Source: a virus
Direction: 5' to 3' (one strand)
DNA length: 30,809 nucleotides
Virus record (IMG/VR): IMGVR_UViG_3300030103_003804
Coordinates: 1-30,809 of that record
Positions 541 through 30,616 of this stretch are shown in pieces. A model generated the notes under the pieces. It saw nothing but the letters and a program-made list of their open reading frames with translations. It ran no database searches and was not told the DNA's origin. Each line of letters starts with the position of its first letter. The stretch's first letter is position 1. Made by a program: the position numbers and the translations under genes.

Positions 541-2049
541 ATGAAAGATTACATCGCAAGGGCATATAAACTTGCCAAACAAGAAAGAGACAAACACGAA
601 TCAGAGATATCTGAAGCGTACCTTTACACAAGACCCAACAGAGACATCTACAGAAAAGATGCAAATCAAACAGACAGAACAAAGATATTTGATTCAACTG
701 CACCAGACGGTGTTCAGACCCTAGTATCCACGATCCTTAATTTGTTGATTCCGCAAAACCAACAATGGGCCACTCTTTCCGTGCGAGAAGATCTAAAGGA
801 AAGAGTAGCGACTGATGTCAAGAAAGCATTAGACGTTGCTAACAGAAGAGTATTCAAAACAATCAGAGACAGCAACTTTTACATAGCGGCATCAGAAGCA
901 TTAACAGATGCAGTCATAAGTGGCTGTGGTTGTATAGGTATGTACGAAGACAAGAACATTGATTTTGTAGCAGTACCAAGTCACCAATTATATTTCTTAG
1001 ATAACCATCAAGGAGAAATAGAAACAGTATTCAGAGAACACGAATTACCAGGACATTATCTTTTAGAAAACTTCATAGATATGTTGCCTGAAGAAATGAA
1101 AAAATTATGTGGAGCAGATCCATACAAAACACACAAAGTATTAGAAAGTTGTTTGAGATTACCAAACGCATCAGAATTTACATACACAGTGCAAGTTGGC
1201 AAAGAAATGACCATACTAAAACAAACAAGTATGCCAGTGCAAATGTTTACCACTTTTCGCTTCGGCAAGACAGTGGGAGACATGTGGGGCACAAGTCCTG
1301 TAAGAGAAGCATTGCCGCATATCAGAGTAGTCAATGAAGCACAGATGTTGTTTATGGAAGCCGCTTCTTACCTAGCATTAGGTAGTTGGCAGGTTAATTC
1401 AGACACAGCAGTCAATTTCGCTAACATGAAATTGAGACCAGGAGATGTAATCACTGTAGATTCCCCTTTACAAGCAATACCATTTCCTGGACAACTCAAC
1501 ATCACGGAAGCAACAATCAATGATCACAGAGCAATGATAAGACGTATGTTGTTCAATGATGCAATATTACCACCAGATGAATCAAAATATCAAACTGCCA
1601 CTGAGGTACAAATACGTCAGTCTGAATTCTACCGTAGAATAGGTCCTAGTGGATTAAGACTAGAACAAGAATTTTTAAGACCATTGGTTGGTAATTTAAT
1701 CAAAAGATTACAGATGAGAGGTGAGGTAGAAGACTTTGCAAGATTCGGTGACATCAGCGAATTGGTTGTAAACTCAGCAGTCAAAAGAGGTATTGCACTT
1801 ACAGAGATCACAAGAGACTTACAGTTGGTACAAACAATCACACAGTTGGGTCCAAACGCATTGGTTAATTTAGATCTACAAAAACTTGCACGTAAAATAT
1901 TAAGAGATGGTGATATGTCACCAGAAGTATTGAAAACAGAAGCAGAAGTACAAGAAACATTGGATCAACAATCACAACAAGAGCAGGCACAACAGTTGCA
2001 GGCATTGGCACAGCAATTACAAGACCAAAATCAACCACCTTCAGTTTAG
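541..2049 (+). CDS. Portal protein (T7 gp8-like head-to-tail connector)
   Basis: A 502-residue protein whose sequence character matches the T7-type head-to-tail joining protein: an N-terminal segment with AYLYTRPNRDIY, a conserved middle (PVQMFTTFRFGKTVGDMWG), and a segment TATEVQIRQSEFYRRIGPSG near residues 350-370 typical of this family. The C-terminus from about residue 475 is a glutamine-rich tail. The length fits the family (T7 gp8 is about 536 residues). It forms the dodecameric ring at the portal vertex through which DNA is packaged and ejected and to which the tail attaches. It is followed at once by a T4-type late promoter motif and the scaffold genes, a normal T7-like order. Confidence 0.93.
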   Translation: MKDYIARAYKLAKQERDKHESEISEAYLYTRPNRDIYRKDANQTDRTKIFDSTAPDGVQTLVSTILNLLIPQNQQWATLSVREDLKERVATDVKKALDVANRRVFKTIRDSNFYIAASEALTDAVISGCGCIGMYEDKNIDFVAVPSHQLYFLDNHQGEIETVFREHELPGHYLLENFIDMLPEEMKKLCGADPYKTHKVLESCLRLPNASEFTYTVQVGKEMTILKQTSMPVQMFTTFRFGKTVGDMWGTSPVREALPHIRVVNEAQMLFMEAASYLALGSWQVNSDTAVNFANMKLRPGDVITVDSPLQAIPFPGQLNITEATINDHRAMIRRMLFNDAILPPDESKYQTATEVQIRQSEFYRRIGPSGLRLEQEFLRPLVGNLIKRLQMRGEVEDFARFGDISELVVNSAVKRGIALTEITRDLQLVQTITQLGPNALVNLDLQKLARKILRDGDMSPEVLKTEAEVQETLDQQSQQEQAQQLQALAQQLQDQNQPPSV

Positions 2050-2339: not shown

Positions 2340-3094
2340 TGCCAGAAGACAACACACAAGCACCCGCAACAACGGAACACTTGATAGACACACAACCAGA
2401 AGCACCAGTAGAAACAGTGCCAACACCAGAACAAGAGGCCGCTACACAACCAGAAAGACCCGAGTGGTTGCCTGAAAAGTTCAAAACACCAGAGGACCTA
2501 GCCAAGTCATACACTGAACTAGAAAAGAAAGTCAGCACCAACAAAGTGCCTGATGCTTACGATTTCAGTATGACCAAAGATTTAGGACTGGATGAAATGC
2601 CAGATGATTTGAGCAAAGAAGTAACTGACGTGTTCAAAAAATCAGGATTCACACAGGATCAAGTCAAAACAGCAATGGCACTCTACTCAGATCAAATGGG
2701 CAAACTGCAACAACAAATGGCAAGCACACCCAGAGTTGATCTAGAGCAAGAACAATCAGCACTGCAACAACAGTGGGGCAACGACTACGCAGACAGACTG
2801 GAAGCAGTCAAGAAGTATGCAGGAACACTGCCACAGCGTATGTTGGATCAACCATTGGTGGACACAGCAGAAGGCATACAGTTTTTGGAACAATTAATGA
2901 GCAACAACAGAATGCCAAACCCAATAACAAACACACAAGCATCAGCACCCAAAGATGCCAACACGATCAGAGAAGACATCAGAGCCATGAGACAGGATGA
3001 CAAATTCAAACTGCCTCCGGGAGATCCTGTTGGAGAGACACACAGACAGAAGTTGTACAATTTGTATGAACAACTTACTAGACTGGGTGGTTAA
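2339..3094 (+). CDS. Capsid assembly scaffolding protein
   Basis: A 251-residue acidic protein with a low-complexity Glu/Pro/Thr/Ala N-terminus (residues 1-38), then the hallmark PEWLPEKFKTPEDLAKSYTE of T7-like scaffolds, a helical glutamine-rich middle, and a C-terminal stretch with a basic/aromatic end. Scaffold proteins guide assembly of the major capsid protein into procapsids and leave before or during packaging. SD (AAGGAG) precedes the start within the upstream gene. In T7 the capsid gene follows directly; here about 6 kb of other genes and a leftward cassette lie between scaffold and capsid. The stop overlaps the next ATG (TAATG). Confidence 0.9.
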   Translation: MPEDNTQAPATTEHLIDTQPEAPVETVPTPEQEAATQPERPEWLPEKFKTPEDLAKSYTELEKKVSTNKVPDAYDFSMTKDLGLDEMPDDLSKEVTDVFKKSGFTQDQVKTAMALYSDQMGKLQQQMASTPRVDLEQEQSALQQQWGNDYADRLEAVKKYAGTLPQRMLDQPLVDTAEGIQFLEQLMSNNRMPNPITNTQASAPKDANTIREDIRAMRQDDKFKLPPGDPVGETHRQKLYNLYEQLTRLGG

Positions 3095-3666
3095 TGCAAC
3101 TAGCCAACCAACTGGACCTACGGCAATACATCGCGGAGTTTAGGGGCCTATTGAGCCAAAGCACCTGCGATGAAATCATTGAATGGAGCCGTACACTGCC
3201 CGACAGCACAGACGCATGGTCGGGCTGGGCCACAGCCGAGAGTGCCCTCACAAACACACAGAATGCAGTAACCAACACACGCATTTGTAAATTCACCATG
3301 TTGGACCAACAGCATGGACCATGCTGGCACAACATACAAACAGCACTCAAACACATCATACAACAGTATCCTTACTATCACAAAGCCACAGAACACACAG
3401 GTGTACAGTTGATCAGATATGGAGCAGGCAATAAATTTGAAGAACACATAGATCATTATGGTGGAGCCAATAGAACATTGAGTTGTAGCATGATGCTAAA
3501 TCAAGATTACGAGGGTGGAGCACTACGATTCTGGCAAGGTCAATATCAAGTGCCTGATCTACACACTGGTGATGCTGTGGTATTTCCCAGCAACTTTTGT
3601 TATCCGCACGAGGTAACACCAGTCACATCAGGCACAAGATACGTGCTGATAGTTTGGTTCTCATGA
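3094..3666 (+). CDS. 2-oxoglutarate/Fe(II)-dependent oxygenase (prolyl-4-hydroxylase type)
   Basis: A 190-residue protein with the double-stranded beta-helix signature: HxD (H118-I119-D120 in KFEEHIDHYGG), a distal histidine (H172 in YPHEV) and a 2-oxoglutarate-binding arginine (R182 in GTRYVLIVWF). GGALRFW around 141-147 and GDAVVFPS around 159-166 also fit the P4H/PKHD family. Such enzymes hydroxylate a protein or small-molecule substrate using O2 and 2-oxoglutarate; they are frequent in marine phages, with mostly unknown substrates. The 5' third uses more GC-rich codons than the flanking genes, consistent with later acquisition. Start overlaps the scaffold stop. Its location between structural genes suggests late expression, so a virion protein could be the target (inference). 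Confidence 0.85.
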   Translation: MQLANQLDLRQYIAEFRGLLSQSTCDEIIEWSRTLPDSTDAWSGWATAESALTNTQNAVTNTRICKFTMLDQQHGPCWHNIQTALKHIIQQYPYYHKATEHTGVQLIRYGAGNKFEEHIDHYGGANRTLSCSMMLNQDYEGGALRFWQGQYQVPDLHTGDAVVFPSNFCYPHEVTPVTSGTRYVLIVWFS

Positions 3667-4284: not shown

Positions 4285-4435
4285 CTTTGTGCTCCTTTTG
4301 TTGTTGCCAATAGTCGCTGTCTGGATCCATCCATTCTTCTATGGTTGGTGCTGTGTCGCTGTTAAAAACCATTTGCGACATAAATTTTTCCCCATCTAGG
4401 TGTAGTGTGGCTGTGTTTTGCTGTTTAGTCTTCAT
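4277..4435 (-). CDS. 52-residue hypothetical protein with APTIEEW motif
   Basis: ATG 4435, stop 4277-4279. It overlaps the end of the 58-aa gene by 11 bases and the start of the 111-aa gene by 8 bases, a tight coupled string. The sequence includes MKTKQQNTATLHLDGEKF and an acidic middle APTIEEWMDPDSDYW. The PTIEE element also ends the neighbouring 58-aa protein (VPTIEEYLYED), so both may bind the same partner through this short segment. No family recognised; too short for a clear fold. Confidence 0.6.
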   Translation of the reverse strand: MKTKQQNTATLHLDGEKFMSQMVFNSDTAPTIEEWMDPDSDYWQQQKEHKDG

Positions 4436-4601
4436 ACAAATACTCCTCTATGGTTGGTACGCTGATTCTAGCGTTTAGTTCATCTTTCCAATCATTGTAA
4501 TCTAGAACAGTTGTACCGTTATGGAATTCTCTCATATAATTCAATTTTAGTAAACTGTACAAATCCTCAGTGCTGTATTGATTGTAGTCTATTTTTTTCA
4601 T
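4425..4601 (-). CDS. 58-residue hypothetical protein with VPTIEEY motif
   Basis: ATG 4601, stop 4425-4427. The product starts MKKIDYNQYSTEDLYSLLKL, a short helical, polar protein, and ends VPTIEEYLYED. It starts 49 bases downstream of the clamp-loader stop in the leftward cassette. GAAAGGCACACT before the ATG gives a usable SD (AAAGG). No family recognised. The shared PTIEE end with the next gene suggests duplication or a common binding partner. Confidence 0.65.
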   Translation of the reverse strand: MKKIDYNQYSTEDLYSLLKLNYMREFHNGTTVLDYNDWKDELNARISVPTIEEYLYED

Positions 4602-4649: not shown

Positions 4650-5393
4650 TCAATCCCCATAGTCAAATAAGTTTACCGCTGGTGCTTGGTAATTTTCACC
4701 CATTACTCGCTTGGCTTTTGCGATGACATCTTCCGCTGTTTGGTTGGTAAGGTTTGGTAAGGTTGCTGAATCCAATTGAGCCAACCATCCATCCAACTCA
4801 TTGAGCATTTGCCTAAATGTTGCGTTGCGATTTACCATCGTGTCTAGTGTTGCTTGTGGTAAAGTGTGTCCTTCCTGCTGTGCTATCTGCTGTAATCTAG
4901 CTCGTGCCATCCGTGTGTTTGGCTCACGTATTTCCAATACAGTACATCTGCTGTGTAGTGCTGTGTTGATTTTTTTGGGGTGATTGGTGGTAAAGATGTA
5001 ACGGCACCTGTGCTCTGTGTCATCTATGTATTTCTTCAAAAAGTTCTGTGCCTTTGCTGTCAACTCATCTGCTTCTTCTAGTATGATTACACTGAAAGGT
5101 GATTTGGTAAATGCGGTAAATGTACGCTGTAATTGATCCTCTAACACCTGTTCTATGCCCCTTTTATCTGTGAGTGCTGATCCGTTGATGTTGATACAGT
5201 TGATTGGATCAATAGCCAATTCAGCCATCAGCATCTGTACCATACTGGTTTTACCCGTGCCTGGTTTGCCGTGTAACAACAGATGGGGTAAATCATTCCT
5301 GTCTAGATATGCGGCTATCTGTGTGTATGTCTGTATGTTGGGCCATAAGTATGTGTGCCTGCTGGTGGGTGCGTATCTCTGTGTCAATTTCAT
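4650..5393 (-). CDS. Clamp-loader ATPase (T4 gp44 / RFC small-subunit-like AAA+)
   Basis: A 247-residue AAA+ protein. Walker A GKPGTGKT at residues 42-49, Walker B VIILEEADE at 102-110 (Glu replaces the usual first Asp of DEAD), sensor 1 FTTNHP near 134-139, and the diagnostic SRC motif (S148-R149-C150) that supplies the arginine finger in RFC and gp44 subunits. T4 gp44 is about 319 residues, so the C-terminal collar is reduced. Clamp loaders open and load the sliding clamp at primer junctions; in T4 the loaded clamp also activates late promoters. The start overlaps the 88-aa gene as ATGA with GAGGAG upstream. The C-terminus ends VNLFDYGD, reminiscent of clamp-binding tails (inference). It is the only replication-type protein seen. 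Confidence 0.88.
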   Translation of the reverse strand: MKLTQRYAPTSRHTYLWPNIQTYTQIAAYLDRNDLPHLLLHGKPGTGKTSMVQMLMAELAIDPINCININGSALTDKRGIEQVLEDQLQRTFTAFTKSPFSVIILEEADELTAKAQNFLKKYIDDTEHRCRYIFTTNHPKKINTALHSRCTVLEIREPNTRMARARLQQIAQQEGHTLPQATLDTMVNRNATFRQMLNELDGWLAQLDSATLPNLTNQTAEDVIAKAKRVMGENYQAPAVNLFDYGD

Positions 5394-5656
5394 TGCGACT
5401 CCTCTTCAAATAATAAATCTATCGTGCTGACTGTGGTTGTTGGTGCGGGTGTTGTAGCGGGTGCTGGTAGTGCCAATGCGGTAGTGATGATGTGTTCCGC
5501 TGGTTCTGTTATGCCTTTGTTCTCAGCATACATTTGTAATGCGGCCAACAGTATCTCTGGTGCCAACAGATCTGTTTCCTGTCGTGCTATCTGATACAGT
5601 AGCAAATCACTTGCTTCATTGATCTCTTTTATGTGTTTGGTGTTTGTTTGTTTCAT
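5390..5656 (-). CDS. 88-residue first gene of the leftward cassette, coupled to the clamp loader
   Basis: ATG 5656 follows AAAGGAATAT, a good SD. The N-terminal 55 residues are helical (HIKEINEASDLLLYQIARQE...), then an Ala/Pro/Thr-rich linker and an acidic C-terminal tail STIDLLFEEESQ. The stop overlaps the clamp-loader start as ATGA, so the two proteins are made together. T4 clamp loaders need a small partner (gp62, 187 residues); this protein could be a reduced partner, but no sequence similarity is evident. The IDLLF element is similar to the QL(S/D)LF-type peptides by which proteins bind sliding clamps; that is inference. It is directly downstream of the promoter at 5684-5712. Confidence 0.7.
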   Translation of the reverse strand: MKQTNTKHIKEINEASDLLLYQIARQETDLLAPEILLAALQMYAENKGITEPAEHIITTALALPAPATTPAPTTTVSTIDLLFEEESQ

Positions 5657-5683
5657 ATATTCCTTTTAGTGCTACTCGTATTT

Positions 5684-5712
5684 ATTATACAAGATAAAAT
5701 GAGCTGTGTAAA
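5684..5712 (-). promoter_or_regulatory. Sigma70-like promoter P1 of the leftward cassette
   Basis: On the minus strand: -35 TTTACA (5712-5707), 17-base spacer, -10 TATAAT (5689-5684), a near-consensus host promoter. Just upstream of -35 lies TGTCGTGTTAAAAAAC (5731-5716), also present at P2, resembling an UP element. The -10 overlaps AATAAATAC on the same strand, which matches the late motif. The start codon of the first cassette gene lies about 28 bases downstream of the -10. Confidence 0.75.
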
Positions 5713-5840
5713 GCGGTTTTTTAACACGACATCTCAAATTACGATAAAAGATGCCGTGCTGTACTTTTTAATAGTGTCCCTAACTGTATCCGCTTGATTG
5801 TGTATGATTGTAAGCAACGAATAATGTCAGCGACTGTGTT

Positions 5841-5869
5841 AGTATACTGTCTTGTGTGGGGTTTGTAAA
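5841..5869 (-). promoter_or_regulatory. Sigma70-like promoter P2 of the leftward cassette
   Basis: On the minus strand: -35 TTTACA (5869-5864), 17-base spacer, -10 TATACT (5846-5841). The same upstream element as P1, TGTCGTGTTAAAAAAAC (5888-5872), abuts the -35. It lies 157 bp upstream of P1 and points the same way; the 130 bp between them hold no coding frame. Confidence 0.7.
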
Positions 5870-5893
5870 GTGTTTTTTTAACACGACACCCTT

Positions 5894-5926
5894 CCCTAGG
5901 GGACATACAAATTAAAACCCTAGGGG
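5894..5926. promoter_or_regulatory. Paired CCCTAGGGG palindromes upstream of P2 (candidate operator)
   Basis: CCCTAGGGG occurs at 5894-5902 and again at 5918-5926. Each contains the perfect 8-bp palindrome CCCTAGGG; the centres are 24 bp apart. The first copy is 6 bp from the upstream element of P2. The two can also pair as one hairpin. Candidate regulator site; no cognate regulator was recognised. Confidence 0.45.
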
Positions 5927-6182
5927 TGATGTCGCTTTGTTAACAACTACACTGTTATTGTACAGTCTGAATGTGGTTCCTGTCAACCGTTGCGACAGTG
6001 TGTTTAAATGCTGATTTGTTGAGCCTGCCTGAATGTGAGTCAAACCCTGGCTTAAAGTGTCAATTCTGGGCTCATTCTGGGTTAGATCCTGCTCTATTCT
6101 ACCCATTACCATCTGATTACCTTTACCATTCTTTACCATCTCCTTCTGATAACTGTGCGACAGATTGGATCATTCTGGCTGA

Positions 6183-6373
6183 CACCGTGCCTCAACCGTA
6201 AGAACTCTAACACCATTGTGGATTGGTAGACAGAGTAGACACGGTGATGATACCGTGGGGACTAGGCTATTGTGTTGCTGACAGAGATGCTCTCGTCGCT
6301 TCGTAGAACGGACGGAGCATCCTGCCTGGGGTTGATTGTTTGTAAAATCTGGCTCACGGTGGTTCACGGTGGT
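6183..6373. repeat. CACGGTG repeats, including a perfect 2x10-bp tandem
   Basis: CACGGTG or its complement occurs at 6183-6189 (CACCGTG), 6240-6246, 6251-6257 (TACCGTG, one change), 6355-6361 and 6365-6371. The last two sit in adjacent exact repeats TCACGGTGGT (6354-6363, 6364-6373). 6240-6257 also forms a hairpin CACGGT/ACCGTG. The pattern is iteron-like, or gives alternative RNA pairings. Confidence 0.65.
6282..6324. ncRNA. Strong hairpin (candidate structured RNA element)
   Basis: Arms CAG-a-GATGCTC-t-CGTC (6282-6297) and GACG-GAGCATC-CTG (6311-6324) give 14 base pairs with two single-base bulges and a 13-base loop. No T tract follows on either strand, so it is not a simple terminator. 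It sits within the CACGGTG repeat cluster. Strand is not decided because all pairs are Watson-Crick. Confidence 0.4.
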
Positions 6374-6380
6374 AAATTGT

Positions 6381-6408
6381 CTGACAGAAACTATGTGGCT
6401 GGTACAAT
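6381..6408 (+). promoter_or_regulatory. Candidate sigma70-like promoter for the small-gene cluster
   Basis: CTGACA (6381-6386), 16-base spacer, TACAAT (6403-6408): five of six matches in each box. It points right, towards the gene at 6595. A chance match cannot be excluded. Confidence 0.35.
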
Positions 6409-6511
6409 TATCTGACTGCTTACATATGGGCCCAAAAAAAACTGCGTTTGGTAATATGTGTGTAACCTCGATTTTTCACGACCACCTTTTAAGTTAATGG
6501 CTCCAGTCCCC

Positions 6512-6590
6512 GTTAAATACTCGCGGATCCTGGTTATTGACTCCTTTGTCATCTGTATTGCCATACTCCAGGATCCACTCAGTTAAATAC
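6512..6590 (+). promoter_or_regulatory. Inverted repeat GGATCCTGG/CCAGGATCC bracketed by two GTTAAATAC copies
   Basis: GTTAAATAC at 6512-6520 and 6582-6590; between them a perfect 9-bp inverted repeat, GGATCCTGG 6525-6533 and CCAGGATCC 6568-6576, with a 34-base loop. GTTAAATA is one base from the late motif NATAAATA, and a third copy lies before the capsid leader (8997). The second copy is 4 bases before the ATG at 6595, leaving no room for an SD there. Confidence 0.45.
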
Positions 6591-6594
6591 AGTC

Positions 6595-6744
6595 ATGCCC
6601 GCTGGAAGAACCATACCCAACACTTTTGTAACCGCATACTCCGGACCCCGTTCGGGCCGTGCCAAAAGCAGACGTTATGGTAGAAAGCGAGTCCGAACAC
6701 GTAAGATTGGGCTCAGGGGCAGGGCAATCAGGGGAAGCAGATAA
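6595..6744 (+). CDS. 49-residue arginine-rich protein
   Basis: ATG 6595, TAA 6742-6744. The N-terminal 18 residues are neutral (MPAGRTIPNTFVTAYSGP); the rest is very rich in Arg and Lys (RSGRAKSRRYGRKRVRTRK...). Such protamine-like composition suits nucleic-acid binding or DNA condensation in the head, by analogy only. Codons are more GC-rich (CGT, CGA, AGG, GGC) than in the structural genes, so it may be acquired. There is no clear SD; the GTTAAATAC element ends just before the start, so a very short leader is possible. It is followed at 58 bases by another tiny basic protein. No family recognised. Confidence 0.55.
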   Translation: MPAGRTIPNTFVTAYSGPRSGRAKSRRYGRKRVRTRKIGLRGRAIRGSR

Positions 6745-6802
6745 AAAATTGGGCAAAAAAAATTTGCTTAACGCTACCCCTAAACGATAGGAGGAGTAAA
6801 TC

Positions 6803-6871
6803 ATGAGAAAGAAAAAACCCGCTAAAAAAACACGAGGTGGCAAACGTGGTGGCAAAAAAAGAAGACGTTAA
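6803..6871 (+). CDS. 22-residue extremely basic peptide (gpJ-like composition)
   Basis: Preceded by GATAGGAGGAGTAAATC, the strongest SD in the window at good spacing, so translation is likely despite the length. It starts MRKKKPAKK and ends KKRRR: apart from Met, Pro, Ala, Thr and Gly all residues are Lys or Arg. This matches in character the DNA-condensing J proteins of microviruses and protamine-like peptides; homology cannot be claimed at this length. It overlaps the start of the next gene in another frame. A role in neutralising packaged DNA is a reasonable guess. Confidence 0.6.
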   Translation: MRKKKPAKKTRGGKRGGKKRRR

Positions 6872-7232
6872 TTGGTTGGAGTACTTTGCTTCAATCACAG
6901 CAGTGTGTCCTTGGAGCAAAGGCTACTGGCTCAAACAAAAAATCGATGTGCAACGCTGGAGGGGTGAGTCCCGCATAACACCCCTAGGAGACCATGTGGC
7001 ACGCATGTGGCTACATCCAAACGCAAGTGGCAGGACACTGTGCAACATACACCACAGATTGAATGAGGATAGGCCCACAGAAGAGTGGCTGTATTCACAT
7101 CCACAGTATGGGGGTCATTCAGCACCCACACCCATTTTGATACAACAGGATCTAGAGACATTAAATAGTGCAAGGAAAGGAAAACACAATGCATCCAAAA
7201 CTGGTACACAAACATCTGTTGGTAAGGGCTGA
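6849..7232 (+). CDS. Conserved marine-phage hypothetical protein (CPWS motif)
   Basis: About 127 residues from GTG 6849, chosen because AGGTGG lies 8 bases upstream; GTG 6837 and 6846 are alternatives and there is no ATG. The N-terminal part NWLEYFASITAVCPWSKGYW resembles short proteins I associate with marine cyanophage and pelagiphage genomes, whose function is unknown. It has scattered Cys/His (C24, HH in NIHHR) but no clear metal site. The start overlaps the 22-residue basic gene by 23 bases and the end overlaps the SpeD-like gene by 44 bases. The C-terminal 20 residues are lysine/serine/threonine-rich and probably disordered. Confidence 0.7.
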   Translation: MAKKEDVNWLEYFASITAVCPWSKGYWLKQKIDVQRWRGESRITPLGDHVARMWLHPNASGRTLCNIHHRLNEDRPTEEWLYSHPQYGGHSAPTPILIQQDLETLNSARKGKHNASKTGTQTSVGKG

Positions 7233-7629
7233 AGTTAATTCACCACCTTTATTCAAAGACAGAGAACGTTTGGACAACGAGATAAAAAGCCTAATCCGTA
7301 ACATTGACATGAACATACTGTCAGGTCCACACACAGCATGGTCAAATGTGGAAGGCAACGAAGGATACAGTTCAGTGGCCATCATTGACACCAGTTCTGT
7401 CACATTCCACAGTTGGAAAGATGGTGTAATACAATTGGATGTTTACAGTTGCAAAGATTTCAAAATAAAAACCATATTCAATTGGTTGGCACAATGGGAT
7501 TTGGAGCAAGTGGACTACAAATACATTGACAGAGATCAAGGATTTAAAACACTAGCACACAATCAACTCAGCCATTGGGACAATGATCAGTACAATCTAT
7601 CATATGAAGATGAGGTAATGTATGACTAA
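7189..7629 (+). CDS. S-adenosylmethionine decarboxylase-like (SpeD family) protein
   Basis: 146 residues from ATG 7189, preceded by AAGGAAAGGAAAACACA; an upstream GTG at 7168 lacks an SD. The core GYSSVAIIDTSSVTFHSW...DVYSC aligns with the SpeD motif ESHISIHTWPE...DVFTC: Ser69 matches the pyruvoyl-forming Ser, His74 the processing His and Cys88 the catalytic Cys. The Glu before the Ser, at the self-cleavage site, is Thr68 here. AdoMet decarboxylase makes the aminopropyl donor for spermidine; phage versions are found in marine phages as auxiliary genes. Because the cleavage-site Glu and following His have changed, activity or processing could differ. Polyamines condense DNA, which fits its position beside basic proteins. 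Confidence 0.7.
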   Translation: MHPKLVHKHLLVRAEVNSPPLFKDRERLDNEIKSLIRNIDMNILSGPHTAWSNVEGNEGYSSVAIIDTSSVTFHSWKDGVIQLDVYSCKDFKIKTIFNWLAQWDLEQVDYKYIDRDQGFKTLAHNQLSHWDNDQYNLSYEDEVMYD

Positions 7630-7853: not shown

Positions 7854-8021
7854 ATGAAAAAAGGATTTCACAAGACCAAAGACGGTAGAACAGCACGTAA
7901 AGGACTGTACTACTATGCCAACAAGAGAAGAAAAGCAGGCAAAAAACCAATCAAAAAAGGCCGACCAGGTTATGTTACCAGAGCGGCTGTGACAAGATCA
8001 GCGAGGACGGCTAAAAGATAA
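7854..8021 (+). CDS. 55-residue lysine/arginine-rich protein (KGLYYYANKRRKAG motif)
   Basis: ATG 7854, TAA 8019-8021. It begins MKKGFHKTKDGRTARKGLYYYANKR and ends in a run of small and basic residues (TRSARTAKR). The KGLY..aN.kr..G core with the basic C-terminus resembles a family of tiny cyanophage/pelagiphage proteins (K-G-L-Y-A-N-I type) of unknown function. GGAG upstream (in ATGGAGATAGC) acts as SD. The stop overlaps an ATG in another frame, but the better downstream start is GTG 8034. A nucleic-acid-binding or head-interior role is inferred from composition only. Confidence 0.65.
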   Translation: MKKGFHKTKDGRTARKGLYYYANKRRKAGKKPIKKGRPGYVTRAAVTRSARTAKR

Positions 8022-8033
8022 TGGAGAGCGACA

Positions 8034-8270
8034 GTGGCAGGTATCAAAACCCGCAAGGGTCAACAGACACAGCACAGCAAGTGTTATGCAAAAGGACAAG
8101 AGTGGGTGCCTTGCAGGGTCATACAACGCAAAAGATTTGGCAACGGCACAAGAACTTTTATGGCCGCACAGTCGGTACAGACCGGAGAGATATACAAGAA
8201 TCATCAGGGATTGACAGCACCGTGGCACTCGATAAACTTTACATCCACCAAGCCAGAGACGTCAGACTAG
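8034..8270 (+). CDS. 78-residue basic hypothetical protein
   Basis: GTG 8034 is preceded by GGAG at 7 bases, which makes this frame more credible than the overlapping frame opening at ATG 8021. The product begins MAGIKTRKGQQTQHSKCYAKG and includes EWVPCRVIQRKRFGNGTRTFMAAQ, with two Cys (C17, C27). It is basic in the first two thirds, like its neighbours. No family recognised. Its 3' end overlaps, in another frame, the start of the small gene at 8222. Confidence 0.6.
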   Translation: MAGIKTRKGQQTQHSKCYAKGQEWVPCRVIQRKRFGNGTRTFMAAQSVQTGEIYKNHQGLTAPWHSINFTSTKPETSD

Positions 8271-8368
8271 TGGACGATTGGATGAACCCATGGCCAATAC
8301 CAGGAGAAAAATTAATCAACACAATCAAGGAGACTTATGACAAAATCAAAAAGCGTTTCAGCACCTAG
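8222..8368 (+). CDS. 48-residue hypothetical protein overlapping its neighbours (start uncertain)
   Basis: From GTG 8222 the product is MALDKLYIHQARDVRLVDDW... ending IKETYDKIKKRFST, a plausible helical protein with PWPIPGEKL in the middle. The same frame is open back to ATG 8021, but the upstream part looks like a shadow of the 8034 gene. So either an independent start near 8222 (weak SD) or a frame change from the 8034 frame produces it. It overlaps the 8034 gene by 49 bases and the 8337 gene by 32 bases. No family recognised. Confidence 0.4.
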   Translation: MALDKLYIHQARDVRLVDDWMNPWPIPGEKLINTIKETYDKIKKRFST

Positions 8369-8489
8369 AGGATACCATTGGATGAAAAAAGGTTCATCCC
8401 TGAGATTGATGAAGGGTGCATACAAGCCGCACAAAGGTGCAGTAAAGAAAGCAAAATTTAAAACTGTCAAATCGCACAGAGGTTACTAG
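8337..8489 (+). CDS. 50-residue basic phage protein (PRGYHWMKKG motif)
   Basis: ATG 8337 follows AAGGAGACTT. The sequence APRGYHWMKKGSSLRLMKG then KPHKGAVKKAKFK matches a widespread short phage pattern (P.GYHWMK.G....LM........PHKGA...AKF), conserved in marine phages and of unknown function. The Trp/His core with a basic end suggests nucleic-acid or capsid binding (inference). It overlaps the previous gene by 32 bases, and its TAG overlaps the next GTG start (TAGTG). It is the last of the run of small basic genes before the DUF115-like gene. Confidence 0.7.
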   Translation: MTKSKSVSAPRGYHWMKKGSSLRLMKGAYKPHKGAVKKAKFKTVKSHRGY

Positions 8490-9001
8490 TGCCCGAGGCT
8501 GACACCAATAGATGTGTCATCATAGGCAACGGACCCAGCAGGCATCTTACACCATTAGAACAGATTGATTGCACAACATTTGGTTGTAATCAACTCTACA
8601 AAGAATACCAACCCAACTATCTGTTGGCACAGGACAAGGAAGTCATACATCAAATGCAACTGGATCGTGTAACAGAAGCAGTGTATGTGCCGCAACACAG
8701 TTATAGAATATTCAGGGACAATACATACACCACGTTACACAACATGAAAGAAATAAAATTTCCACATACCAGAATGAATTCGTGGTTAACAGGAGAACAA
8801 GCCATAGTGTTGGCCGCACAGTTGGGTTACACACAAATGGATCTGATAGGATTTGACGGAGGACCCGAAAGCATATACCGTGAACCACAGGCACAAGCAC
8901 AACCACATCGTGAAAGATATACACGCACATTAAAAATGATACAGGAGTATTTTCCTAAAATCAAAATCACAGTGGATCAATACTTTACCAGCAGAGGTTA
9001 A
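8489..9001 (+). CDS. DUF115-like / Rossmann-type protein (GNGPS motif)
   Basis: About 170 residues from GTG 8489, coupled to the preceding stop. The N-terminus VIIGNGPSRHL (10-20), then TTFGCNQLYKEYQPNYLLAQDKEVI, and the later LIGFDGG motif are typical of the DUF115/MptE-like and glycosyltransferase-like proteins common in marine phages. The GNGPS loop usually binds a nucleotide or nucleotide-sugar. Biochemical activity in phages is not established; modification of host surface or phage glycans is a common suggestion. The TAA is part of the GTTAAATAC element (8997-9005) that may start capsid transcription. Confidence 0.7.
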   Translation: MPEADTNRCVIIGNGPSRHLTPLEQIDCTTFGCNQLYKEYQPNYLLAQDKEVIHQMQLDRVTEAVYVPQHSYRIFRDNTYTTLHNMKEIKFPHTRMNSWLTGEQAIVLAAQLGYTQMDLIGFDGGPESIYREPQAQAQPHRERYTRTLKMIQEYFPKIKITVDQYFTSRG

Positions 9002-9184: not shown

Positions 9185-10069
9185 ATGGCATTAGTAGCAA
9201 ACGCAGGAACATCAGTATCGAATTCATTCGTAACTATGTTCAGTGATGATGTAAAACAAGCGTACCAACAAACATCATCAAATTTAGTTGACGCAGTTAG
9301 AGTTGTAAGAAACGTAACTGGTTCAACTTACAAGTTCCACAAACTATCAAAAGGTGGTTCAATCAAGAACAAAGCAAGATTCGAAGATATCACGGCTATG
9401 TCTGATTCGAGCAAATCTTTTGCAGGAAGTGGTGCTTACACTGGTAGCACAGCACAGAACAGTGTTGTAACTACTACACTTAACAATTACCATTCTGGTG
9501 AATACATTGACGACATGGATCAATTTAAGACAAATATCGATCTTAGAAACACGTTCGCACAAGCGATTTCGTCAGGTTTAAACAGAGCGGTAGACCAAGA
9601 GATCATCGACGCATTAGATGCCTCTGCACCAACTACACAGGTGACAGCAGGATCTGGATTAACTAAAGCAAAATTTTTAGAAGTCCACGAAGCGATGAAT
9701 GGTCTTTCAATTCCAACTAACGACAGATGTATAATCATCTCTCCGCAAGCCTTAACAGATCTTTTAACAGATACTAACTTGGTTACAGCGGCAGATGGTT
9801 TAGTATCTAACACTGCATTGACTTCAGGATACATTCCAAATGTATTCGGTTTCAGAGTGATTATGTCAACTCTTTTAACAAAAAATTCTGTTCAAAGAGA
9901 TTGTTACGCAATTCACAAAGATTCAGTAGGTCTTGCATTAGCATCTGACATTACGACAAGAATCGATTATGTAGCTCAGAAAGCGAGTCACTTAGTACTG
10001 GGTACTATGTCTGGTGGAGCAACGGCAATCGACGCAGACGGCATTGTAAAAGTGGAGGTCACAGAGTAA
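9185..10069 (+). CDS. Major capsid protein (HK97-fold)
   Basis: 294 residues, strong SD AAGGAG 9 bases before ATG 9185. Its sequence has the character of podovirus major capsid proteins: N-terminal VSNSFVTMFSDDVKQAYQQ, a middle E-loop-like segment, the mid-region ISSGLNRAVDQEIIDAL, and a C-terminal region (VQRDCYAIHKDSVGLALASD..TRIDYVAQKASHLVLG) with the late beta-strand pattern of the fold. Size is close to other T7-like marine phages. It has its own structured leader and a strong terminator, so it forms a monocistronic, highly expressed unit. It would assemble on the scaffold (2339) with the portal (541) at one vertex. Confidence 0.9.
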   Translation: MALVANAGTSVSNSFVTMFSDDVKQAYQQTSSNLVDAVRVVRNVTGSTYKFHKLSKGGSIKNKARFEDITAMSDSSKSFAGSGAYTGSTAQNSVVTTTLNNYHSGEYIDDMDQFKTNIDLRNTFAQAISSGLNRAVDQEIIDALDASAPTTQVTAGSGLTKAKFLEVHEAMNGLSIPTNDRCIIISPQALTDLLTDTNLVTAADGLVSNTALTSGYIPNVFGFRVIMSTLLTKNSVQRDCYAIHKDSVGLALASDITTRIDYVAQKASHLVLGTMSGGATAIDADGIVKVEVTE

Positions 10070-28843: not shown

Positions 28844-29147
28844 AGTAGAACAAGAATGGTTAAACATACTCAAAGGATTTGCAGACGGTTACTGGAAAAA
28901 AGAAGTCGAAGAAGCACACAGTCTTTTTGATACACCCTATCCTGACAAAAGCGAAAAGGATTATATCAAAAAAACTACATTCTTAGACAATGGTAAACGT
29001 GCAAAACTTATGTTGTTGAAATATCTAGCACAAGCATCATCAGGTGCAGTGCATCCAACTGGTATGAATAACCAAGAAGAGAAAAGTGAAGCGGCAAAAT
29101 TGCTTTCGATGGCACAAAAAAGGCTTGACAAAAAAGCAAATGAGTAA
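28830..29147 (+). CDS. Candidate small terminase subunit (105 residues)
   Basis: ATG 28830, with AAAGAAG upstream inside the preceding gene; its stop overlaps the large terminase ATG (TAATG). The protein is helical and charged (VEQEWLNILKGFADGYWKKEVEEAH..., KAKLMLLKYL-like middle, KLLSMAQKRLDKKANE end). T7 gp18, the small terminase, is 89 residues and lies right before gp19, so position and size support this call. Sequence motifs for small terminases are weak, so the assignment rests on context. Confidence 0.55.
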   Translation: MSKNRVEQEWLNILKGFADGYWKKEVEEAHSLFDTPYPDKSEKDYIKKTTFLDNGKRAKLMLLKYLAQASSGAVHPTGMNNQEEKSEAAKLLSMAQKRLDKKANE

Positions 29148-30616
29148 TGTCCAAAATACCATTCAAAGTATTTTTAGACACGCTGAACATAATCAGTAAT
29201 CAGACCACACCACCCGTACACCAAGAAATATGTGATTGGTTAGAAAACACTGACGACCACCCTAGACGTGGATTACAAATGTTTAGGCATGGTGGCAAAT
29301 CGTTTTTGATAGGTGCGTATGTTTGCTGGAAATTGTTTCACGATCCTAACTGGAGTTGTCTATTAATATCAGCCAAACGTAATCTAGCATTAAGGAACAG
29401 TTTGTTCATACGTAACATGATTGAGTCACACCCCATGTTGCAGGACATGAAAAGTGATCTGTATCAATGGAAAGCAGAAACGTTCACAGTGGAGCGACCC
29501 ATAATGCAGTTGAATCCTTCCGTCACGGTCAGCAGTTTAGGTGCGAGTTTTACCGGATTTCATGCTAGTATGGTAATTGCAGACGACATAGAGACGAGTG
29601 ACAACGTTATAACTGCTGATCAAAGAGACAGGATCAAAGAGCGTGTAAGTGAATTTGGAAAACTTTCAAATCAAATTCTCATGGTGGGAACACCTCACCA
29701 TGAACAAACCATATACGATCATTTAGAAAGTGTTGGTTATGAATTCAAACGTATACCAGTGGTAAGGAAACGTGATGTGATACAAGAAGACAGCACAGTT
29801 GCCGAGGAAGATTACCTAGCATGGGACAACCATCCAGAAAAAATGTTTACATATGAATGGTTGGATCAACAACGCAGAGAAACAACCACAGGTGATTTCA
29901 ATTCACAGTATATGTTGATTCCTGAATCAACTTATCAACCATTAGTACAATTAGAAAACATCAAATACTACGATGATGAATTGAAATGGAACAGCATAGC
30001 ACAACCTTTTGGTAATGCAATAACCACGTGTACATTGGGCAGACACAACATTGAACGTATATGTTCATACTGGGATCCAGCACAAGGATTGAGTGGTAGA
30101 GATAATTCTGTTCTATCCATATGTGCTAGAGACAGTGAGGGTAATACTTTTGTGCATGACATAAAAGTATTGAGTGCAGTAGACAAAGAAACAAAAGATT
30201 TTACAGAACAGTGTAGAGAAATTATTCATGCTTGTGCTTACCACAAAATAAGTCACGTATACGTTGAGGAAAACTTTTCTGCAACGTTGGCAAATGAATT
30301 ACGTAAAGTTGCAAGAGAAATGAAAGTGATGGTACAAGTGATTGCAGAATTTAGATCCAAAAACAAAATGGTATTCATTGCACAAACATTAGAACCTTTG
30401 ATCAAAGTAGGACGTATGTTTGTTCATGAGAGAGTAAAAGAAACACCGTTCATGGATGAGTTACAAGCGTTCCCTCAACCAAGGGTGCATGATGACTGTA
30501 TTGACGCAACCAGTGGTGCAATAAGTCACTTGCCTAATTTAGCCGTGGATGTGTCCAAAGTTGCTAAGGTATTCAACCCTTTGCAACGCTCTGGATCCAG
30601 TTTCAAAATCAATTGA
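29147..30616 (+). CDS. Terminase large subunit (T7 gp19-like)
   Basis: 489 residues. Walker A-like FRHGGKSFL (46-54), Walker B MVIADDIE (142-149), then the nuclease domain with YWDPAQGLSGRDNSVLSI (about 308-325, first catalytic Asp), YVEENF, and HDDCIDA near 452-458 (last catalytic Asp). It pumps DNA into procapsids through the portal and cuts packaged DNA. T7 gp19 is 586 residues. It is the last gene of the operon starting at 28667. Late promoter and repeats follow directly. Confidence 0.93.
   Translation: MSKIPFKVFLDTLNIISNQTTPPVHQEICDWLENTDDHPRRGLQMFRHGGKSFLIGAYVCWKLFHDPNWSCLLISAKRNLALRNSLFIRNMIESHPMLQDMKSDLYQWKAETFTVERPIMQLNPSVTVSSLGASFTGFHASMVIADDIETSDNVITADQRDRIKERVSEFGKLSNQILMVGTPHHEQTIYDHLESVGYEFKRIPVVRKRDVIQEDSTVAEEDYLAWDNHPEKMFTYEWLDQQRRETTTGDFNSQYMLIPESTYQPLVQLENIKYYDDELKWNSIAQPFGNAITTCTLGRHNIERICSYWDPAQGLSGRDNSVLSICARDSEGNTFVHDIKVLSAVDKETKDFTEQCREIIHACAYHKISHVYVEENFSATLANELRKVAREMKVMVQVIAEFRSKNKMVFIAQTLEPLIKVGRMFVHERVKETPFMDELQAFPQPRVHDDCIDATSGAISHLPNLAVDVSKVAKVFNPLQRSGSSFKIN

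Follow-up and report, generated by a model that had tools for sequence, protein, structure and literature searches.

Marine podoviruses of the kind considered here ordinarily lack a polymerase, which is therefore no surprise in itself. Indeed, no polymerase is annotated in HTVC010P, and the HTVC010P-type pelagiphages (proposed Ubiqueviridae) share with the Methylophilales phage MEP301, which is without both DNA and RNA polymerase (PMC8024684), the condition of small podoviruses that encode neither enzyme. The same is true of Skadi, which encodes a lambda-like helicase loader (PMC10504331) and thus offers a precedent for the takeover of a host replisome by a polymerase-less phage. HTVC010P encodes the annealing protein Erf and gives a weak match to O-type replication initiators, and MEP301 carries Erf, YqaJ, SSB and RusA. 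A gp44-type ATPase is annotated in none of HTVC010P, Skadi and MEP301. The locus described below bears, through a gene swap, on the means by which such phages seize the replication machinery of their hosts.

The other systems relevant to this locus are the clamp loaders and the proteins that bind sliding clamps. T4 gp44 and the RFC small subunits consist of AAA+ domains I and II followed by a collar domain III, the part of clamp loaders that is responsible for oligomerisation (PMC8121543). A glutamine (Gln118 in T4) is conserved in the phage, archaeal and eukaryotic loaders, and not in the bacterial ones (PMC8121543). Clamps are bound by hydrophobic, acidic C-termini carried on a divergent linker, and these ends are interchangeable (PMC2988020). 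In T4, gp43 ends in ASLDFLFG and gp55 in PSLDFLYEAND.

The window analysed here is the whole of a 30,809-nt stretch of viral DNA (IMG/VR record IMGVR_UViG_3300030103_003804, positions 1 to 30,809, labelled linear), and 57 related contigs were gathered with its major capsid protein. Its genes follow the T7-like arrangement seen in the HTVC010P-type podoviruses, running from the portal through scaffold, capsid, tail tubes, internal virion proteins and tail fibre to the terminase. The T7-type terminase large subunit (29147-30616, plus strand; PHROG_38, 5e-84) defines the phage type, and the portal or head-tail connector (541-2049, plus strand; PHROG_332, 4e-74) and the major capsid protein (9185-10069, plus strand; PHROG_3437, 4e-40) were identified as well. 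The capsid protein is about 30-33% identical to those of HTVC010P, Hodr and MEP301, and the MEP301 portal is also related to that of the window. A capsid protein with 59% identity sits in a single-cell genome contig labelled Pelagibacteraceae, which makes a host of the SAR11 type plausible.

For practical purposes the window is a whole genome, which largely settles the matter of completeness. Its two ends abut in locus L002, which comes from a different metagenome, is 99.5-99.8% identical to the window and reads from 6097 down to 1 and then, without a gap, from 30809 to 26922. The same join is crossed by L017, L024, L028, L055, L059 and L060, and G022 (31,759 bp), the relative to which L059 belongs, overlaps itself by 98 bp at its ends and is thus a closed genome of about 31.7 kb. 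This rules out that the window is a fragment separated from its replication module. An open reading frame (30711-266) bridges the join and holds a run of about 13 prolines, and its CCA repeat could explain the break in the assembly at this point. Scans of the window against Pfam, PHROGs and NCBIfam turned up no primase, helicase, SSB or clamp and no polymerase, RNA polymerase included; the Erf, O-type initiator, helicase loader, YqaJ and RusA genes of the phages named above were likewise not found. The unannotated reading frames are below polymerase length, apart from virion proteins and one 982-aa frame situated among those. The original suggestion that a polymerase-less phage, if its genome is complete, would depend on the host replisome is thus borne out: since the genome is complete and has no polymerase, the phage must use the replisome of its host.

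The gene of interest encodes a 247-aa gp44/RFC-type AAA+ ATPase (4650-5393, minus strand), whose residues 1-207 (4773-5393) form AAA+ domains I and II. It matches PHROG_168, "clamp loader of DNA polymerase" (3.8e-36), the Pfam AAA family (1.1e-19), the archaeal RFC small subunit (4e-23) and T4 gp44 (9e-17, 26% identity); over T4 gp44 and the RFC small subunits, identity ranges from 26 to 32%. The Walker A motif (GKPGTGKT, residues 42-49), the sensor-1 TN (N137), the SRC arginine finger motif (148-150) and the sensor-2 arginine (R194) are all intact, and the equivalent of T4 Gln118 is Q116, in an invariant column of the alignment. In an AlphaFold model (pLDDT 82) an AAA+ core and a helical lid can be made out, the tail being poorly ordered, and the top Foldseek match of the model is 2chg, a construct crystallised as "RFC domains 1 and 2" (E 4e-16). 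The type of the ATPase, its Walker A, its Walker B and its SRC motif had all been noted from the letters alone. In the Walker B, residues 105-109 read LEEAD rather than LDEAD, so that the metal-binding aspartate of the DExD signature is replaced by a glutamate (E106) in the window and a sibling, while an aspartate stands there in 29 of 29 other homologues. This substitution may weaken hydrolysis. Other origins for the domain score lower: the bacterial DnaX/HolB profiles reach 52-59 bits, against 105 for the RFC small subunit and 126 for gp44, and a helicase loader of the DnaC/lambda-P kind is disfavoured by an E-value of just 0.007 for the DnaC-like PHROG_3277, against 3.8e-36 for the clamp loader family. 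A defence-system ATPase was considered as well, and PADLOC returned weak, generic AAA matches only.

Unlike gp44 and RFC, the ATPase has no collar. In the alignment, 36 residues lie past position 212, where 29 full homologues have 93-95, and in nearly all comparisons homology to gp44/RFC stops near residue 228 at most. About 80 viral homologues were retrieved, and the complete ones are all 287-327 aa long with at least 61 residues beyond the matched region; none among those examined is another collarless gp44/RFC-type ATPase. Domain III is missing from the sequence and from its AlphaFold model alike. At its position stands a C-terminal tail of the protein's own (residues 208-247, 4650-4772), ending in AKAKRVMGENYQAPAVNLFDYGD. 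The genome gave no match to the gp45 clamp or the gp62 A subunit in Pfam, PHROGs or NCBIfam, which marks a further difference from T4. The ATPase therefore shares the catalytic module of clamp loaders yet fails the defining feature of their subunits, and since the absent collar is the part that assembles the pentamer, it is not a canonical clamp loader. If it is functional, a minimal virus would here have put a clamp-loader AAA+ module, uncoupled from loading, to a new use.

The ATPase gene is, as had been noted at the outset, coupled to the gene of an 88-aa protein (5390-5656, minus strand) through a 4-nt ATGA overlap. This partner has a probable N-terminal helical part, a linker rich in Pro, Ala and Thr, and a C-terminus, TIDLLFEEESQ, that closes the protein as STIDLLFEEESQ. 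It matches nothing in Pfam, PHROGs, NCBIfam or PADLOC and yields chance-level PDB matches only; it is not significantly similar to gp62, and has no meaningful match to gp33 or gp55 in PDB, PHROGs or Pfam, nor to gp55 by blastp. A short hydrophobic-acidic end behind a flexible linker is what it has in common with the clamp-binding tails of T4 gp43, gp55 and gp33, with no detectable homology outside the tail, and it has no distant homologues in which the conservation of the motif could be followed. The tail pattern, which was picked after the tail had been seen, is present in 3 of 172 comparison reading frames, two of them T4 gp43 and gp55. Noticed after the fact, this likeness is only a lead, by which the host clamp would be an attractive target.

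Upstream of the 88-aa gene lies an early promoter of the sigma-70 type (TTTACA-17-TATAAT, 5684-5712, minus strand) with 11 of 12 consensus matches. Promoter-like sites are, in the scan overall, no more numerous than in shuffled sequence, so that the argument rests on conservation across relatives, and the sisters indeed carry TTTACA...TATAATAAATAC. Two more minus-strand units follow upstream, TTTACA-17-TATACT (5841-5869), which has the same upstream repeat TGTCGTGTTAAAAAA, and TTGACA-18-TACAAT (5957-5986). A 32-bp element occurs in two copies, 84% identical (5700-5731 and 5857-5888), just upstream of two of the early promoter-like sites, which suggests a duplicated early promoter unit. On the other side of the ATPase, a 58-aa early gene (4425-4601, minus strand) has related genes in L012 and L060 and a promoter-like site of its own (4653-4625, minus strand). 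The operon is preceded by a mostly non-coding region (5657-6836), within which 6420-6689 is conserved at the DNA level (69-76% in L012, L031 and L060), although neither a convincing gene nor an Rfam match is found in it. The region might be an origin, a regulatory or promoter region, or the source of a regulatory RNA; no DnaA boxes were found in the island, and Rfam gave no match to a structured RNA there.

In the sister phages L012, L017 and L060, the equivalent minus-strand slot is occupied by two different genes, whose products measure 143-178 and 154-172 aa; the early promoter in front of them and the ATGA overlap that joins them are those of the window. There is no ATPase in these pairs, the upstream partner is unrelated to the 88-aa protein, and for the L017 pair (143 and 157 aa) our searches found no known family. 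The second protein of the sister pair nevertheless ends as the ATPase does, although the two are otherwise unrelated: the 40-aa tail is recovered in L012, L017, L019 and L060 by tblastn (E 1e-12 to 3e-14), with a consensus of about 35 residues (AK.RVMG.NYQ.PAV.LFDYGD). This tail has no known family match, with one chance-level match among cultured phages, and a structural model of the sister tail protein (pLDDT 57) is not interpretable. The 88-aa gene and the AAA+ module thus stand together where the sisters have another cassette, with the promoter on one side and the tail on the other held constant. It had been proposed that this phage keeps only a clamp loader; besides the missing collar, the proposal fails because the sisters hold an unrelated pair whose second protein ends in the common tail behind the common promoter, so that the gene, as these alignments indicate, was acquired rather than retained. 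The swap amounts to a natural experiment on the takeover of host replication by very abundant polymerase-less marine phages.

Smaller sequence traces are found in the same early proteins. A repeated peptide, VTKPDLTNQ, precedes the conserved tail in L012 (1330-1848), L060 (6076-6540) and L028 (5810-6676), all on the minus strand, and a trace of it, LPNLTNQ, is seen in the window ATPase. A motif RD[DS]M[FY].VRA recurs in otherwise dissimilar early proteins of L017 (5874-6305), L060 (6537-6983), L028 (6673-7095) and L059 (6442-6849), also on the minus strand, a further indication that modules have been shuffled within the early operon.

The ATPase was found only in the window and in two near-identical siblings from other metagenomes, L002 and L003, and in 0 of 27 relative records, several of these being fragments that do not reach across the island. 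Its reading frame is intact in all three metagenomes. Between the window and L003 there are just 10 nucleotide and 3 amino-acid differences (dN 0.007, dS 0.039), a mostly synonymous change that weakly suggests maintenance. A recent capture from a T4-like cyanophage is not supported, the branch being about 4 changes per site long and falling outside all sampled gp44 proteins, and a plasmid source was set aside with just 3 distant matches.

The reading that we tentatively prefer, with somewhat less than even confidence, is that of an early host-takeover cassette made up of the 88-aa gene and the ATPase gene, with an ATPase that would act on the host replisome. In this scenario, an AAA+ module would have replaced a non-ATPase domain in a protein carrying the phage lineage's own C-terminal tail, and this shared tail would recruit differing effector modules to one conserved partner. 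The cassette would be transcribed early by the host RNA polymerase, and the two proteins would use ATP binding or hydrolysis to remodel the host sliding clamp or helicase assembly, and would in this way bring the host polymerase to copy the DNA of the phage. No phage clamp would be loaded by the ATPase, because there is none in the genome; the host clamp may, as originally put forward, be redirected. A more specific version, which we consider unlikely, is a two-protein clamp capture: the 88-aa protein would dock onto the host clamp by its T4-like motif, and the collarless ATPase, recruited by its tail, would open, unload or reposition the clamp and so steer the host replisome to phage DNA. The sisters without the ATPase are presumably viable, and since they manage without it, the ATPase is neither the replication engine of the family nor a general requirement; it could also serve in another early role. 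The main rival, somewhat unlikely in our view, is an accessory pair for host takeover or counter-defence that is unrelated to replication, placed at a variable cassette site, with the AAA+ domain acting on some other host target. It would suit an early island that differs in each family branch examined, an ATPase restricted to the window and two siblings, and the presence in L060, a little beyond the island and before the capsid gene, of a DNA methyltransferase (8048-8824, plus strand; PHROG_67, 1e-47). The conserved tail and the identical operon layout suggest, however, that the exchanged pairs do equivalent jobs, and the domain is specifically of the clamp-loader type, while the PADLOC matches are of the generic AAA kind.

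The resemblance of TIDLLFEEESQ to the ends of gp43 and gp55, with its linker and its rarity among the comparison reading frames, would also fit a clamp-directed transcription system, in which the 88-aa protein is a gp33-like coactivator tethering the host RNA polymerase to the host clamp, and the ATPase places or retains that clamp. We hold this to be quite unlikely, given the lack of a gp33/gp55 sequence match, of a gp55-like sigma factor and of gp45 in this genome, and the post hoc choice of the tail pattern; moreover, T4-type late promoters were sought and the late box TATAAATA occurs at four sites in total, which are not placed before late genes as a class. An acquisition that is decaying or close to neutral, without a role of importance, would account for the long, divergent branch, the missing domain and the altered Walker B; it seems very unlikely for a reading frame that stays open in three metagenomes, that has changed mostly at synonymous sites, that keeps all its remaining catalytic residues, and that stands behind a strong conserved promoter with coupled translation. 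As for a genuine clamp loader, a complex that would load either the beta clamp of the host or a phage clamp that went unrecognised, the conservation of the AAA+ domains, the SRC motif and the sensor residues is what would be expected, but without a collar, a clamp or a subunit of the gp62/delta type, and with an altered Walker B, we regard it as highly improbable.

Some of the genes around the island deserve a mention. A 2OG-Fe(II) oxygenase-like gene (3094-3666, plus strand; PHROG_61, 1e-33) adjoins the variable island in relatives too. An S-adenosylmethionine decarboxylase-like gene (7168-7629, plus strand; PHROG_3125, 2.8e-12) is found with about 80% DNA identity in L015, L017 and L047, in a different gene order, and is cleanly missing in L009 and L010, where 7199 joins 7619. 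Two long overlapping reading frames in different frames (8021-8368 and 8034-8270, plus strand) are both open, with similar proteins, in L012, L017, L024 and L060, and could be a true overlapping gene pair.
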